Origin: Cephaloticoccus capnophilus
GTDB taxonomy: Bacteria > Verrucomicrobiota > Verrucomicrobiia > Opitutales > Opitutaceae
Direction of reading: 5' to 3'
Assembly (NCBI RefSeq): GCF_001580045.1
Contig: NZ_LSZP01000003.1
Location: forward strand, 1 to 64,000
DNA: 64,000 bases
In this document: positions 8,456 to 60,787 of the stretch, one piece after another
Numbering within the stretch: the stretch's first letter is position 1
Layout: each line of letters begins with the position of its first letter
Notes under the pieces: generated by a model
Seen by the model: only the letters and a program-made list of their open reading frames with translations
Databases searched by the model: none
Told to the model about the DNA's origin: nothing
Made by a program: the position numbers and the translations under genes

Positions 8456-9508
8456 ATGCAACACACTTTGGATGCCATCCTCACTTCGGCTCGCGCGGAA
8501 TTTGCCGCCGATGTGCCTTTGCCTAGCCGTGCCGAGTTTGAAGCGGCCAAGGCCCGCTACGTCGGCCCGAACGGTCAGCTTACCGCCCAAATGAAAAAGA
8601 TGGGCAGCGTGCCGAAGGAGGAGCGGCCCGCGCTCGGCAAACTCATCAACCAGACCAAGCTCGACGTGCAGCAACTTCTTGATGCCGCGCTCGCCCGCAT
8701 CGAGGCCGGCGAGCTCCGCGCAAGCCTTGGGCCGCCCATCGACCCGACCTTGCCCGCGCCCGATATCGGCCCGGGCTCTTATCATCCGCTCTCCGCCGTC
8801 CGTGAAGAGCTGAGCCGTATCTTGCGCAAAGTCGGCTTCACCGTCGCCGACGGGCCGGAAGTCGAGACGGAGTATTACTGTTTCGACGCGCTCAACACGC
8901 CTGCCGACCATCCCGCGCGCGACACGCAAGACACCTTTTACCTGCCCAGCTCGGTGCGCTTCGCCAACGTGCCCAAGAAAACCGAGCACGAGCACTATCT
9001 GCTGCGCACGCACACGTCCTCGGTGCAAATCCGCACGATGCTCAAAGGCCAGCCGCCGATTCGCATCGTTTCGCCAGGCCGCGTCTATCGGCGCGACACG
9101 ACGGATGCGACTCACTCGGCCAACTTCCAGCAACTAGAGTGCCTTTACGTGGATAAGAACGTCACGATCGCCGACCTCAAAGCCCTGCTCGACTACCTCT
9201 TCGAGTCGCTCCTCGGCAAAGACACGAAGACTCGCTTTCGCCCGCATTATTTCTCCTACACCGAGCCGAGTTTTGAGGTGGATTTGAGCGCACGCCACTT
9301 GCCCAAGGTCAACAAGGAGTGGATAGAGATCGGCGGCTGTGGGATGGTCGATCCAGCGGTGTTTGCCGATGTGGGCTACGACCCGGAAGTGTGGAGCGGT
9401 TACGCCTTCGGCATGGGAATCGAGCGACTTGCCATGCTCCTCTACGGTATCGATGACATCCGCTATTTTTACCAAAACGACCTACGCTTTCTGAGGCAGT
9501 TTGCTTAA
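8456..9508 (+). CDS. pheS: Phenylalanyl-tRNA synthetase alpha subunit
   Basis: This is a 350-residue class II synthetase catalytic subunit. An N-terminal coiled coil (about residues 1-85) is followed by the catalytic core, with motif 2 around FQQLECLYVDKNV and motif 3 GYAFGMGIERLAMLLYGIDD near the C-terminus. It charges tRNA-Phe as an alpha2beta2 enzyme with PheT, which is encoded 55 bp downstream. I chose the ATG at 8456 (MQHTLDAIL). An in-frame start 13 codons earlier gives an unlikely extension. No Shine-Dalgarno is evident. Confidence 0.96.
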   Translation: MQHTLDAILTSARAEFAADVPLPSRAEFEAAKARYVGPNGQLTAQMKKMGSVPKEERPALGKLINQTKLDVQQLLDAALARIEAGELRASLGPPIDPTLPAPDIGPGSYHPLSAVREELSRILRKVGFTVADGPEVETEYYCFDALNTPADHPARDTQDTFYLPSSVRFANVPKKTEHEHYLLRTHTSSVQIRTMLKGQPPIRIVSPGRVYRRDTTDATHSANFQQLECLYVDKNVTIADLKALLDYLFESLLGKDTKTRFRPHYFSYTEPSFEVDLSARHLPKVNKEWIEIGGCGMVDPAVFADVGYDPEVWSGYAFGMGIERLAMLLYGIDDIRYFYQNDLRFLRQFA

Positions 9509-9563
9509 GCCGAAAAACGGAAACCGGCCTGCTGTCGTCCCATTTCTGATACGTCTGCTCCCA

Positions 9564-12056
9564 ATGAAAATTTCGCTCAACTGGATAAAAGACTACCTGC
9601 CCGCGCTCGACGCCTCGCCAGAGGAAATCAGCCGTGCAATCACCTTCCTCGGCTTCGAGGTCGAGGCCGTCCTCCACAGCGGTGCGCCCGCGCTCGAAAA
9701 CGTAGTCGTCGGCAAAATCCTCACCCGCGAGAAACACCCCAACGCGGACAAGCTCTCCGTCTGCACGGTTGACGTCGGGGAGGCGCACGGCGGTGTGCGC
9801 ACCATCGTTTGCGGTGCGCCCAATTGCGATGCGGGCAGGCACGTGCTTGCGGCGCTCCCGGGGGCCGTTCTCCCCGGCGATTTCAAAATCAAGTCCTCAA
9901 AAATTCGCGGCCAAGTCTCCGACGGGATGCTCTGCTCAACGGACGAACTGGGCATCGGGACCGACTCTGAAGGCATTCTCCTGCTCTCCGGTGAGCCTGC
10001 GCTCGGCACAGCGGCGAACGACGTGCTGCCGGCGGGCGACGTCGTCTTCGACGTCGAAATCACGCCCAATCGGCCCGATTGCCAATCGCATCTTGGGCTC
10101 GCGCGTGAGTTGGCCGCGTGGTTCAAGCTCCCGCTTGTTTACCCGCAATCGCGTTTCCGTGGCCTCGCCGAAGACGCGCCAGAGCGGCGCGACCTGCTCG
10201 CTGCCGTGCAAGTCGATACACCGGTCGAGTGTCCGCTTTACAGCGCGCACATCATCAGTGGCGTAAAAGTCGGGCCGAGCCCTGATTGGCTCCAAGCGCG
10301 GCTTAGCGCTGTCGGGCTGCGCCCAATTAACAACATCGTCGATGTCACGAACTACGTGCTCCTCGAATACGGCCAGCCACTCCACGCCTTTGACGCGGCG
10401 CGACTCGGCGGCGACGCGCGCGTTAGCCCTGGTGGCCAGCGCTTGCACATCCGGCACGCGCAGGCGGGCGAGACGCTCACCACGCTCGATGGCAAGGCGC
10501 GCGCACTGGAGCCGCCCACGCTCGTTATCGCCGGTGCGGAGACGCCGCTTGCCGTTGCCGGAATTATGGGTGGCGAAGCCTCTGGTGTGAGCGATGCGAC
10601 GAGCGACCTCGTCCTCGAGTGCGCGATTTTTAAGCGGCAGACGATTCGCCGCACCTCGAAGCGGCTTGGGCTGTCCTCCGACTCGTCCTATCGCTACGAG
10701 CGCGGTGTCGATCCGCACATGGCACTTGAGGCGGCGCGTCGTGCGATCGGCCTCATCCTTGAGACGGCGGGCGGCGAAGTAGTCGGCCCGGTTTTCCAGG
10801 TTGGCGGCGAGGTGCCTTGGCAACGCGAGGTCGTCGTAACGCACGACTATATTTGCGAAAAACTCGGCTTCGACATTCCCGCCGAGGCGATGCGCGCGGC
10901 CTTTGAGTCGCTCGAACTGCGCATCACGCGCGAGGAGCCCACGGAGGCGCGCGGCCCCGCGTGGACGCTTGCCATCCCGAGTTGGCGGCAAGACCTCGAC
11001 CGCCCGATTGATTTGGTGGAGGAGGTTTTGCGCGTTTACGGCACAGATAAAATCCCCGCAACGCCGCTCACGAGCCCCGGCCTCCTCGCCGAAGACGACC
11101 CGACCGTGCGTTTTAATCGCCGCGTGACTGACTTTCTCGTTGGGCACGACTTTAATGAGTGCGCCAGCTACACGCTGCGTTCGGGCGAGGAACTGAGCAC
11201 TTGGGTTTCGCAGACCGCTGCGGCCGAGCTTGCGCTGGCGAATCCTTTTGTCGCTGACCAATCGCATCTGCGCCCGACGCTGCTGCTCGGTCTGCTCGAA
11301 GCCCTGCACCTGAATCAATCGCGCGGAACGCCCGTGCAACGGCTTTGCGAAGTCGGTCGCGTGTTTATCGAGAGTAACGGCCAAACGCACGAGTGCGCGT
11401 CGGTCGGCTTCCTCATCGCGGAGGACACGACGACGCGCCACTGGCTGAAACGCGAGGCTGCCGACTTTTACACGGCCAAGCACCTCGTCGCGGCGCTGGC
11501 GAATGCGGCTGGAATCGATTTTGCGCGGCAGCCAGTAGAGCCCACCTCCGGCGATTTTCTTGGCTGGCAAGACGGGCACGCGGCCCGCGCGGGCGACCTC
11601 GAAAAGCTCGGCTGGAAAGCGCGTTTCGGGCTGCTCGACCTCGCGCTTGTGAAGTCGCTCGGGATTGAGGGCAAAGTATATGCAGGTACGTTTTCGATTT
11701 TGCCTGAAAAACTCGCCGATGCGCAGACGCGCCGCCGCTTCGCGCCCTTTAGCTTGTATCCGGCGACGCTGCGTGACCTCGCGCTTGTCGTCCCCGCCGC
11801 ACTGCCTGCCGAGGACTTGCGCAAGCAACTGCAAAAAACCGCGCGTGCCGTCGTGGGTAATGCCTTTGCGGTCGAGTCGGTCGCACTCTTCGACGTGTAT
11901 CGCGGCGAGAGCCTCGGAGACGCGCAGAAGAGTTTGGCCTTCAGCCTCGTTTTTCGCGCCGAGGATCGGACGCTTACCGATGACGAGGTGAACGCGGCCT
12001 TCCAAAAAATCCAAGACGAGTTACTCGCATCGACTGGATACGCGCTGCGCAAGTAA
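9564..12056 (+). CDS. pheT: Phenylalanyl-tRNA synthetase beta subunit
   Basis: This 830-residue protein has the PheT domain order. The N-terminal region (MKISLNWIKDYLP) leads into a tRNA-binding OB fold at about 40-150 (KHPNADKLSVCTVDVG), then a B3/B4 editing domain with RPINNIVDVTNYVLLEYGQP. A B5 domain follows, then a catalytic-like core (PSWRQDLDRPIDLVEEVLR) and a C-terminal ferredoxin-fold anticodon-binding domain (FAPFSLYPATLRDLALVVP). The ATG at 9564 fits the family start. A long opposite-strand frame covers this gene but is only a GC-rich shadow. Confidence 0.96.
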   Translation: MKISLNWIKDYLPALDASPEEISRAITFLGFEVEAVLHSGAPALENVVVGKILTREKHPNADKLSVCTVDVGEAHGGVRTIVCGAPNCDAGRHVLAALPGAVLPGDFKIKSSKIRGQVSDGMLCSTDELGIGTDSEGILLLSGEPALGTAANDVLPAGDVVFDVEITPNRPDCQSHLGLARELAAWFKLPLVYPQSRFRGLAEDAPERRDLLAAVQVDTPVECPLYSAHIISGVKVGPSPDWLQARLSAVGLRPINNIVDVTNYVLLEYGQPLHAFDAARLGGDARVSPGGQRLHIRHAQAGETLTTLDGKARALEPPTLVIAGAETPLAVAGIMGGEASGVSDATSDLVLECAIFKRQTIRRTSKRLGLSSDSSYRYERGVDPHMALEAARRAIGLILETAGGEVVGPVFQVGGEVPWQREVVVTHDYICEKLGFDIPAEAMRAAFESLELRITREEPTEARGPAWTLAIPSWRQDLDRPIDLVEEVLRVYGTDKIPATPLTSPGLLAEDDPTVRFNRRVTDFLVGHDFNECASYTLRSGEELSTWVSQTAAAELALANPFVADQSHLRPTLLLGLLEALHLNQSRGTPVQRLCEVGRVFIESNGQTHECASVGFLIAEDTTTRHWLKREAADFYTAKHLVAALANAAGIDFARQPVEPTSGDFLGWQDGHAARAGDLEKLGWKARFGLLDLALVKSLGIEGKVYAGTFSILPEKLADAQTRRRFAPFSLYPATLRDLALVVPAALPAEDLRKQLQKTARAVVGNAFAVESVALFDVYRGESLGDAQKSLAFSLVFRAEDRTLTDDEVNAAFQKIQDELLASTGYALRK

Positions 12057-56975: not shown

Positions 56976-59003
56976 ATGCCCGATTCCGATAACAAGAAGA
57001 GCCGCCGCCCTCTGAAAAACCTCCCTCCAGACCGCTTTCAGCCGAAGGTGCTGCTTATCTGGCTACTGGTCGCGCTGACTTTGACGTCGCTCTTGTTGTG
57101 GTCGCCTGCCCGCCTCGGCTCGCCCATCACGCTCAAAATCCAGCAAGTCGTCGAGCTCGCCGAAAGTGGCGGTATCAAGGAAGGCGTCATTAAGCCCGAT
57201 CTATCGGGCGGGCGCGATTGGTCACTGGTGACGGGCGAGTTGAGCGAGCCCATGTTGCTGCGGCCGGACAGCGAGCAGACGACTACGGCCTTCCGCTCGG
57301 CGGGCCGCCTTACCGACTCAAACCTAGAGCGGCTCCAGCGTTCGGCGCGCTTTGTCGAGCAACCGGCCACCACGATGTGGTCGCAGATTTTGGCGAACGT
57401 TATCCCCTTCGTCATCATTATCGGGCTCTTGTACTTTCTCTTCATCAGGCAGCTCAAACAGGCGGGGCGGGGCGCACTCAGTTTTGGCAAAAGCAAGGCA
57501 AAGCTGCTCACGCGCGATAAAGAGAAGATCACTTTCGCGGACGTCGCGGGTTGCGATGAGGCGAAGGAGGAAATCAGCGAGATCGTCGAGTTCCTAAAAG
57601 CCCCGAAAAAATTCTCCGCCATCGGTGGGCGCGTTCCCAAAGGCATGTTGATGGTTGGGCCTCCGGGCACGGGGAAGACGCTGCTCGCCAAAGCGGTCGC
57701 GGGTGAGGCGGACGTCCCATTTTTCTCCATCTCTGGTTCGGACTTTGTGGAAATGTTTGTCGGCGTCGGCGCGAGCCGCGTGCGCGATATGTTTGAGCAA
57801 GGCCGCAAAAACGCGCCCTGCCTCATCTTTATCGATGAAATCGACGCAGTGGGCCGCCAGCGCGGAGCGGGACTCGGCGGCGGTAACGACGAGCGCGAGC
57901 AGACGCTTAACTCGCTCTTGGTCGAGATGGACGGGTTTAGCACGCAGGACGGCGTCATCATCATCGCCGCGACCAACCGGCCCGACGTGCTCGATAGCGC
58001 GTTGCTGCGCCCCGGCCGCTTTGATCGCCAAGTGACTGTGGACTTGCCCGACATCGTGGGCCGCGAAGCAATCCTGCGCGTCCACGCGAAAAAAATCACG
58101 CTTGCCGAAGGCGTTGACCCCGCACTCATCGCGCGCGGCACGCCGGGCTTCTCGGGCGCAGACCTAGCCAATCTCCTCAACGAAGGGGCACTTCTCGCAG
58201 CCCGCCGCAATAAGGAGAAGGTCGAGATGATCGACATCGAGGATGCGCGCGAAAAAGTCCTCTTTGGCCGCGAGCACCGCCGCCTTATGGACGAGTCCGA
58301 AAAGCGGCTCATCGCTTGGCACGAGGCCGGACACGCCATTATTCAGGGGCTCCTCGACGATGGCACGATGCCCGTTCACAAAGTCACCATCATCCCGCGG
58401 GGCCAAAGCCTCGGCAGCACGACCTACATCCCGACGAAGGACATTCTCACGCGCCCGATGAAAAAGCTGCTCGACCAAATCGCGATGGCGATGGGCGGCC
58501 GCATTGGCGAGGAACTTGTCACTGGCGACTTTAGCAACGGCGCGAGCGGCGACATTAAGCAGGCCACAAAAATCGCCCGTGCGATGGTCTGCGATTATGG
58601 GATGAGTGCGCTCGGCCCCGTGGATCTCGCCGAAAACCAAGACACCGTCTTTCTCGGGCGCGACATTACGCGCTCCCGCCACATTAGCGAAGACACCGCG
58701 CGTAAAGTTGACGAAGAGGTGACCCGTATCCTCAAAGAGCAATACGCGCGCGCCAAAGAGCTGATTTACTCGCACCGCGCCGCGCTCGATAAAATCGCCG
58801 AGGCTCTGCTCGAATACGAGACGATCGAGGGTAAACACATCCTCGAAATCCTCGCACACGGCGAAATTAAGAGTGCGGTCATCGTCTCGCCGCCGCCTAA
58901 GCCAAAGCCCGCTCCAACTCTCGCCGAGGAGGGCACGACAGCGCAGGAAACCGAGCCGGTCATGCCCTCGCTCGAAGGCACACCCGCCCCCAGCCCAGCC
59001 TAG
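56976..59003 (+). CDS. ftsH: ATP-dependent zinc metalloprotease FtsH
   Basis: This 675-residue membrane protease has TM1 ([20 protein letters not shown]), a periplasmic domain, TM2 ([13 protein letters not shown]-type, near 140) and an AAA+ domain. The AAA+ domain has Walker [12 protein letters not shown] near residue 228, Walker [16 protein letters not shown] and the arginine-finger region [21 protein letters not shown] zinc site HEAGH lies near residue 448. The C-terminus is Pro/Glu-rich. It degrades misfolded and regulatory membrane proteins. The ATG at 56976 ([11 protein letters not shown]) is preferred to one 11 codons upstream. Confidence 0.95.
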
Positions 59004-59006
59004 GTT

Positions 59007-59040
59007 TTCCACTGCGCGTGGGGCGGCGGTCAGTGACCGC
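59007..59040 (+). repeat. Intergenic repeat unit A-B after ftsH
   Basis: The first part (A) begins TTCCACTGCGCGTGGGGCGG and the second (B) is the palindrome-like GCGGTCAGTGACCGC. A recurs inverted at 59285-59307 and 59356-59377, and B recurs at 59319-59337. It lies 4 bp after the ftsH stop. Confidence 0.8.
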
Positions 59041-59048
59041 TTCCATTT

Positions 59049-59097
59049 AATTTGGGATTTCTCATCGCGCTATTGCGCGAAAGCGAAATCCCAAATT
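59049..59097. repeat. Inverted repeat 1 in ftsH-MFS spacer
   Basis: AATTTGGGATTTC (59049-59061) and its exact complement GAAATCCCAAATT (59085-59097) flank an inner hairpin TCGCGC-TATT-GCGCGA. The whole could form a cruciform or long RNA hairpin. It has no T-tract and so is not a standard terminator. Confidence 0.85.
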
Positions 59098-59215
59098 TGA
59101 AAGCACTCCCCCCTGGCGCGTTGCGACAGGGAGGGGAAAGTAGGGTGATAACCCGTTTGGGCGAGGTGGGGAAAATCACCAGTAAACTCCCATCCCAAAG
59201 TTTGTGGTCCTTTTC

Positions 59216-59265
59216 ACAGAGCCGCTTGGCTGCTGTGCGAATGCACGGCAACCAAGCGGCTCTGT
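59216..59265. repeat. Inverted repeat 2: near-perfect 23-bp hairpin
   Basis: The 14-bp arms ACAGAGCCGCTTGG (59216-59229) and CCAAGCGGCTCTGT (59252-59265) extend inward through GCTGTGC/GCACGGC to a GAAT loop. This gives about 23 pairs with one mismatch and one wobble. It is not followed by a T-tract. Confidence 0.85.
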
Positions 59266-59284
59266 AAATGGGTGCAGCGACACG

Positions 59285-59377
59285 CTGCCGCCCCACGCGC
59301 AGTGGAAGCTCAGAGAGAGCGGTCACTGACCGCCGCCAAATAAAACAGCCTGCGGCTGCCGCCTCACGCGCAGTGGG
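59285..59377. repeat. Inverted and direct copies of unit A and B
   Basis: CTGCCGCCCCACGCGCAGTG (59285 on) is the inverse of unit A. The palindrome GCGGTCACTGACCGC (59319 on) is unit B inverted. CTGCCGCCTCACGCGCAGTG (59356 on) is a second inverse copy of A with one change. With the other elements, nearly all of 59004-59400 is repeat material and no gene is present there. Confidence 0.8.
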
Positions 59378-59500
59378 GGTTGTGGCACTTCTCTTGGAGT
59401 CTTATTATGATGTGGGCGTAGTATCTTTTCGTACCGGACGGGAATAGTGTCGAAAGCGGGAACTGAGGGGCGCAGCAGTTGCTTCGCCTGTCGGTTGTTT

Positions 59501-60787
59501 ATGTCCGAATTGTTGTCTCCTCCCGTGTCTTCTACCGCCTCTGCTAATCCTTATCGCCAACTGTTCGCGGCGCGGGGGACGCTGTGGTTTTTCGTGGCGG
59601 GGATGATTGCGCGGTTTCCTTCGGGGATGATCACGCTGTCGATTGTGATGATGCTCACGCATTCGCGGACGAATTACAGTTTGCCGAGTTTGGTCGCGAG
59701 CACGGCGATTTTGTCGAATGCGCTGATTGCGCCGCAGTTGTCACGGCTGGCCGACCGCTATGGGCAATCGCGAATCGCGCTGCCCGCGATGGGGGTGACG
59801 GTTACGGCGTTCGTCGCGCTGATGTTGGGCGCGCGGCTGATGTGGCCGGCTTGGGCTTTGTTCGTTTGCGCGGTGGGCTCGGGCTGCATTCCAAATTTTG
59901 GCGCGTTCTCGCGTGCACGCTGGTCGCATGTGTATTCGGGCACGCCGCTTTTGCGTGCGGCGTTTTCGCTAGAAGCGCTTTGCGAGGAGATGGTTTGGAC
60001 CTGTGCGCCGTTGATTGTGATTTGGTGCACGACGCGGCTTTTTCCTGAGTCGGGAATCGCGGCGGCGGCTCTACTTTTTACTTTGGGCGGCCTGGTGTTT
60101 TGCGCGCAGCGGAAGAGCGAACCGCCCGCGCTTGCGCACCAGTCGCCGCCCGCGCCAGCGGCGGATGAGGGGCGAGCAAGCGAAGTCGCGCGGGATCGAT
60201 CGGCGATTTTTATGCCTGTAGTGCTGATTTCGTCGTTGGCCCTTTTGGGCTTCGGCGGGTTTTTCGGCGTCGTGGAGGTGGCGACGACGGCCTTTGCGAA
60301 GGCACTCGGAGTACCGGGAAAGATTTTTTACCCGCTTAGTCTGTGTGCTGTCGGTTCGTTTATTGGCGGAATCCTTTACGGGCGGCGGGCGTGGGGCTTG
60401 CCGCTGCGCCGTCAGTTTTTGGTTGTTACGGGAGTATTCTTCGCGAGCACGCTGCTGTTCTTCTTTGTTGGCGGGCTTTGGGGGCTGGCATTGTTTTGCT
60501 TCCTGTCGGGCGGGATGAGTGCACCGACGATTATTATTTCGATGGGGCTGATTGAGAGCTTGGTCGCGAAGCCGCGGCTGACCGAGAGTATGACTTGGGG
60601 CTTGGTGAGTCCTCTCGTCGGGATGGCGCTGGGGGCGGCAGTTGCGGGGCCGGTAGTAGACTGGGCAGGGCCAGCGCGGGCGTTTTATGGGGTGAGCGCT
60701 TTCGGTGCCTTGACTTTTGCGGTGGCGTGGGTGGGCCAAGCTTGGCTCGCGCCGCCGTCACCGCAGGGCATTCGCACCGTTCGCTAA
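59501..60787 (+). CDS. Major facilitator superfamily transporter
   Basis: This 428-residue protein has about twelve hydrophobic helices in two halves split by a charged loop near residues 205-230 (QRKSEPPALAHQSPPAPAAD). The first half has SRLADRYGQSRIALP, matching the MFS loop 2-3 pattern (G-x-x-x-D-R-x-G with shifts). Helices include ALPAMGVTVTAFVALMLGAR and SSLALLGFGGFFGVVEVATT. The substrate is unknown, and the overall style resembles drug or sugar exporters of the MFS. I chose the ATG at 59501. The frame opens earlier but with a poor start. Confidence 0.85.
   Translation: MSELLSPPVSSTASANPYRQLFAARGTLWFFVAGMIARFPSGMITLSIVMMLTHSRTNYSLPSLVASTAILSNALIAPQLSRLADRYGQSRIALPAMGVTVTAFVALMLGARLMWPAWALFVCAVGSGCIPNFGAFSRARWSHVYSGTPLLRAAFSLEALCEEMVWTCAPLIVIWCTTRLFPESGIAAAALLFTLGGLVFCAQRKSEPPALAHQSPPAPAADEGRASEVARDRSAIFMPVVLISSLALLGFGGFFGVVEVATTAFAKALGVPGKIFYPLSLCAVGSFIGGILYGRRAWGLPLRRQFLVVTGVFFASTLLFFFVGGLWGLALFCFLSGGMSAPTIIISMGLIESLVAKPRLTESMTWGLVSPLVGMALGAAVAGPVVDWAGPARAFYGVSAFGALTFAVAWVGQAWLAPPSPQGIRTVR

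Follow-up and report, generated by a model that had tools for sequence, protein, structure and literature searches.

In the window, that is, the whole analysed stretch of 64,000 nucleotides of Cephaloticoccus capnophilus DNA, the spacer that separates ftsH, whose stop codon is at 59003, from an MFS gene (59447-60787) is occupied by a cluster of palindromes and inverted repeats, which raises the question of what kind of object these units form and how it is maintained. Every unit named in the preliminary description was found in place: three copies of A in mixed orientations (+, -, -), two copies of palindrome B (59026-59040 and, inside the right flank module, 59319-59333), a 13-bp inverted repeat with an inner CGCG hairpin (hp1), which proved to be perfect, and a "23-bp near-perfect hairpin", which is the long stem hp2. 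The suggested likeness to dispersed REP/BIME repeats held with respect to high copy number, extragenic position, palindromic sequence, and inverted pairing, whereas the proposed nesting of MITE or REP insertions gave way to a single modular element of ~300 bp (window 59005-59307, plus strand; core from A to A', 59009-59305), with six local hairpins and without coding capacity, followed by a truncated second module (Table 1); nesting was seen for a small second module in some copies. There is almost no doubt about the identity of the element. Its inverted ends, A...A', correspond to CCACTRCGCGTGG, a nearly invariant 13-mer was present at both ends, and exact matches to each unit within the 64-kb window were confined to the cluster. 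None of the units is a standard terminator, as had been stated previously: the sole terminator-like site in the region lies on the minus strand (59360-59344), and the number of such sites in 58800-59600 was not clearly above that in shuffled sequences. No promoter-like site was found inside the element.

Table 1. Features of the repeat element and its right flank (window coordinates).
Feature	Position	Strand	Remarks
Complete dispersed element	59005..59307	+	ends flush at A and A'
Unit A copies	59009-59021, 59293-59305, 59365-59376	+, -, -	
Left inverted end, unit A (CCACTGCGCGTGGGGCGGC)	59009..59027	+	
Palindrome B (GCGGTCAGTGACCGC)	59026..59040		other copies carry different perfect palindromes instead
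Hairpin hp1	59049..59097		13-bp perfect arms 59049-59061/59085-59097, inner CGCG stem
Hairpin H	59111..59131	+	CCCTGGCGCGTTGCGACAGGG in this copy; consensus CCCTGTCGCGTTGCGACAGGG
Short hairpin CCCGTTTGGG	59152..59161		within conserved middle
Hairpin hp2, long near-perfect stem	59213..59268		26-nt arms 59213-59238/59243-59268, 88% complementary
Palindrome B' (GCAGCGACACGCTGC)	59274..59288		
Right inverted end, unit A'	59293..59305	-	
Flank module AAGCTCAGAGAGAGCGGTCACTGACCGC	59306..59333		occurs beside other copies too
Truncated second module, hairpin-TTTTATTTGGCGG read on minus strand	59332..59376	-	third A at its end

The genome-wide search for the units, on which the preliminary description had let its proposal depend, found them hundreds of times elsewhere and conserved in the sister species, Cephaloticoccus primus CAG34, which belongs to the Opitutaceae and lives as a symbiont in the gut of turtle ants (PMC5840417). 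In the 2.09-Mb draft genome (66 contigs) of C. capnophilus, also an ant-gut bacterium, a search with window 59004-59400 revealed at least 40 copies of the 301-bp core with 83-95% identity, 40 of the 263 first-look candidates having been scored. Unit A, in the form CCACTRCGCGTGG, was counted 295 times in this genome, versus 2 for the reversed control pattern, 210 times in C. primus, and 0-1 times in the seven other congeners; the repeat family was present in two of the nine genomes of the genus and in two of the 252 of the family. The hairpin H consensus (CCCTGTCGCGTTGCGACAGGG) had 105 exact copies in C. capnophilus and 21 in C. primus, and none in the 250 other Opitutaceae genomes. When elements were counted on large contigs taken whole and the density was scaled to the genome, 30 elements in 638 kb corresponded to an estimated ~100 per genome in C. 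capnophilus, and 111 elements in 1.23 Mb to ~200 per genome, or 2.8% of the sequence, in C. primus. Chance is excluded by the copy number, by the excess of unit A over its control, and by a fold lying 14-15.5 SD below that of shuffled sequences, for RNA of either strand and also for DNA. The plasmids, phages, and viral contigs searched contained no match to the element, and a phage or plasmid origin was therefore rejected; a contig scan beyond the family gave single matches in unrelated bacteria, which were judged from match length to be due to chance. A known Rfam RNA was also rejected, since in Rfam 15 no match reached the gathering score and only sub-threshold miRNA hairpins were found. No published description of the element was found in a partial literature search. 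The family is specific to the Cephaloticoccus lineage and is a large, modular form of a known kind of repeat.

Several smaller modules accompany the element. A second small module of the type hairpin-TTTTATTTGGCG-hairpin, with swapping stems, was observed at window 59332-59365 and in many C. primus elements, and in each of the two species it nests within the large element or next to it. The flank modules GCGCTGATACGCTTTTTT and GCGGTCACTGACCGCTCTCTCTGAGCTT recur directly outside unit A in C. capnophilus copies (e.g., L004, L006, and L014), and a T-run ahead of unit A was observed in C. capnophilus only, without a counterpart in C. primus.

Covariation was analyzed in 30 copies of both species, chosen because their A ends were intact and hairpin H could be recognised, against a structure of 85 pairs. 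It was found that 91% of the cells paired and that two-sided changes occurred at 40 of the 85 pairs, the number of cells with a two-sided change being 239; shuffling gave 84 ± 8, and sliding of the partners gave 13-30. The largest share of covariation fell to hp1 (two-sided changes at 8 of 13 pairs), H, which is the best sequence-conserved hairpin between both species, hp2 (15 of 22 pairs), B, and B'. Two A/A' pairs had two-sided changes, and the variable positions of A and A' were uncorrelated over all copies (p = 0.23 and 0.63), so that A-A' pairing as a conserved stem was rejected. In the local hairpins of 90 full copies, 85 G-T and 83 A-C mismatches were found alongside ~4500 Watson-Crick pairs. 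An RNA transcribed from a single strand would be expected to accept G-U more readily than A-C; since no such bias was seen, constraint or copying is placed at the level of DNA, and the hairpins look constrained as DNA rather than as a one-strand RNA. Selection for a protein would account for their conservation equally well. Stem types, for example, GGGATTTC, GGGAATTGG, and GCGATTTTG, were exchanged whole between copies, a few hybrids had one arm of each type, and the hairpin modules assorted nearly freely, with no association in 5 of 6 module pairs in C. capnophilus and 4 of 6 in C. primus. In C. primus, the loop of hp2 was found in either orientation (CGGAAC or CGTTCC), a pattern that template switching or a local inversion would be expected to produce; it is known that stems can stay paired through template switching (PMC8794818).

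Placement of the elements was assessed relative to codon-based gene calls made in this analysis. None of 118 element midpoints fell within a called gene, and in tandem spacers the element lay at a median of 42-60 bp after the upstream stop. Convergent spacers held 24 of 52 elements in C. capnophilus (74 of 400 spacers were convergent) and 19 of 59 in C. primus (74 of 454), whereas divergent spacers were avoided (6 of 52 elements versus 75 of 400 spacers in C. capnophilus). The strand of the element was random with respect to transcription (9:13 and 18:17). Insertion at terminators was rejected, since the T-run before A was enriched at both the 3' and 5' sides of genes in C. capnophilus and was absent in C. 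primus. The element forms the 3' flank of ftsH in both species; in those other congeners for which this flank was read, a conventional terminator (GC hairpin and T-run) and an aminotransferase gene come after ftsH. The MFS gene that separates ftsH from UDP-glucose dehydrogenase in C. capnophilus has no counterpart at this locus in C. primus.

Of 258 gene pairs that are neighbours in both species, an element was present in both at 10, in C. capnophilus only at 7, in C. primus only at 28, and in neither at 213; thus, presence differed between the sisters at 35 of the 45 occupied conserved spacers. The odds ratio for site sharing was 10.9 (p = 1.4e-5; p = 4e-4 for tandem pairs alone) and 9.6 (p = 0.001) when the residual spacer was at least 60 bp in both species, and a smaller, earlier sample pointed in the same direction. 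Identity at 11 shared sites was 0.608, compared with 0.613 with partners permuted, and orientation was inverted at 8 of 10 shared sites and the same at 2, or inverted at 8 of 11 with the addition of the ftsH copy, which is in the same orientation. Median copy identity was 85% within C. capnophilus, 72% within C. primus, and about 62-63% between them. Sites are therefore reused or inherited, yet the local sequence keeps no ortholog memory: either certain permissive spacers have been targeted more than once, or older copies have been overwritten and inverted where they stand. Since a scarcity of permissive spacers could also give ten-fold sharing, the shared sites are no proof of descent; position favours vertical descent of the shared copies, and sequence and orientation oppose it. 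Given that the congeners lack the repeat and have an ordinary terminator after ftsH, the family most likely expanded after the split from them.

Three readings assign a function to the copies. REPs and BIMEs are thought to end or stabilise mRNAs, and the element might likewise be under selection at 3' ends: transcription could run through it on either strand, its hairpins would act on the mRNAs, and it would have replaced ordinary terminators. Its distance from the upstream stop, its enrichment between convergent genes, its occupation of the place of the ftsH terminator, and the strength of the hairpins on both strands agree with this; however, orientation preference is absent, the sister species differ at most occupied conserved spacers, terminator-like sites show no clear excess, and purging of harmful insertions gives equal placement, which makes selection at gene 3' ends an unlikely explanation. 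BIMEs also hold sites for gyrase/IHF-type proteins, and positive supercoils gather between convergent genes. Copies kept by selection as putative binding sites for a similar nucleoid or topology protein would suit both the convergent placement and the nearly invariant 13-mer at the ends, but the high turnover between the sisters leaves this reading little probability. The structured RNA raised in the preliminary description fared worse. A very stable fold and covariation are what a family of trans-acting structured RNAs would have, but G-T mismatches equal A-C mismatches, the strand is random relative to genes, no internal promoter-like site was found, and ~100-200 copies are scattered over the genome, so that such a family is hardly credible.

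With regard to a driver, four transposase families (Y1/RAYT, DDE_Tnp_1, IS110, and rve) were searched for in the draft genomes. RAYT genes, which the preliminary description had proposed to look for, were absent from both species, and a resident RAYT was rejected; the only Y1 gene, that of C. capnophilus (none in C. primus), encodes a TnpA of the ordinary IS200/IS605 type and lies next to TnpB, with no unit A in the vicinity. This single IS200/IS605 element (L041, C59:25108-25434) comprises TnpA together with a TnpB-like ORF of 488 aa that is read divergently. Six of the seven congeners without the repeat had 1-10 Y1 genes, and two of these genes (L203:1401-2417 and L205:903-1929) were flanked by 25-32-bp inverted repeats (GGGGTC..GGCC) unlike A in sequence, resembling the TIRYT/TIRtron loci of PMC3733652. 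No DDE_Tnp_1 or IS110 transposases were found in either genome, and rve gave one good match in C. capnophilus and 0 in C. primus. Target-site duplications, also named there as a check, were not borne out: none of at least 5 bp was present in 93 flank pairs, and neither duplications nor inverted flanks exceeded the shuffles. The one long A-to-A' interval examined (1.46 kb) was rejected as an autonomous parent, as it holds a PEP-CTERM-like ORF and no transposase. The secreted PEP-CTERM-like family (L084:944-2210 and 9021-10486 on C. capnophilus contig C20) has ~31 related loci per Cephaloticoccus genome; one copy sits between two A ends of the repeat, and the two copies read have a long C-homopolymer near the coding start, possibly related to phase variation. 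The absence of RAYT, DDE_Tnp_1, and IS110 and the near-absence of rve mean that the driver has been lost, is of an unsearched kind, or that no transposase is involved.

These results bear on two further readings. A classical MITE, mobilised by a DDE transposase of the cut-and-paste type that recognises the A ends, would be, like the element and prokaryotic MITEs in general, non-coding, below 600 bp (here ~300 bp), bounded by terminal inverted repeats, and dispersed in many copies. Unlike such MITEs, the element has no target duplication, A and A' vary independently, and no autonomous parent with A ends was seen among DDE_Tnp_1, IS110, and rve or in the long A-to-A' interval, so that this origin is improbable. 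A genuine REP/REPIN family, once driven by a RAYT that both species have recently lost, would explain the inverted REP-like doublet architecture, and it fits with the Y1 transposase genes of most genus relatives and with the abundance of GTAG REPs in the Opitutus terrae genome (PMC3733652). It is opposed by the missing GTAG tag at a fixed place (A has TAC or TGC), by the single matches to A in relatives with Y1 genes, and by the different sequence of the inverted repeats bounding the Y1 loci of two relatives, and we consider it quite improbable. Of the IS200/IS605-type features, hairpins and the lack of duplication were found, whereas TnpA was present in one species only, at a locus without unit A.

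In its inverted REP-like ends, hairpin fold, compensatory arm changes, extragenic position, and occurrence in clusters and in at least 100 copies, the element is similar to REPINs (Bertels and Rainey 2011, PMC3116915) and BIMEs; it is palindromic, exceeds 100 copies, and forms an inverted doublet around a spacer. Unlike REPINs, which are roughly 100-bp doublets, it is ~300 bp long with six local hairpins, lacks the GTAG tag (position 6 of unit A is A or G, and the polarity is opposite) and a cognate RAYT in either genome, and shuffles its hairpin modules among copies. With GTAG/CGTC-tagged REP dimers (Di Nocera 2013, PMC3733652), it shares head-head pairs, structured spacers, and a preference for convergent and unidirectional spacers, and CGTC REP families likewise have no dedicated transposase; it differs in having neither tag, CGTC being absent at either end of the element consensus, and in a 215-bp interior with four hairpins instead of spacers of 20-100 bp (PMC3733652). 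Since the tag and RAYT tests failed, the element was not filed as a REP family. We know of no sequence relation between it and pneumococcal BOX elements. The resemblance to the boxA-boxB(n)-boxC modules of BOX is by description only: both are modular and intergenic, occur in a genome of ~2 Mb, and vary in length by whole modules, but the element has inverted ends, and its modules swap and are not tandem repeats (PMC3049150).

The best explanation, to which we assign a probability of roughly 0.6, is that of a REPIN/BIME-like non-autonomous DNA repeat whose hairpins are rewritten by conversion or template switching and whose driver has been lost or belongs to an unsearched family. Its architecture is that of inverted REP-like ends, A-B and B'-A', around the interior of further hairpins, and it would have spread as non-autonomous mobile DNA requiring the hairpins as single-stranded DNA; mobility is suggested by presence/absence differences between two species whose copies are ~62% alike. 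The driving transposase may be gone from both genomes or may be a member of a family other than those searched. Likeness within each genome and the perfect hairpins would be kept by DNA copying, namely, gene conversion between copies, template switching within hairpins, and inversion between A and A', while copies would be tolerated at harmless places, i.e., at gene 3' ends. Confidence in this mechanism is moderate. It is conceivable, although doubtful, that dispersed hairpin elements in transposase-poor genomes persist, stay homogeneous, and re-sort their modules and orientation by DNA copying alone (conversion, template switching, and inversion), in concerted evolution of palindromes at fixed sites without a dedicated transposase.

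The family also carries a warning, in that covariation by itself need not mean a functional RNA. With two culturable sister species, ~100 and ~200 copies, sharp presence/absence differences, and no obvious transposase, it offers a natural test case of how bacterial palindromic repeats spread and are kept perfect, in which more strain genomes could tell transposition, conversion, and selection apart.
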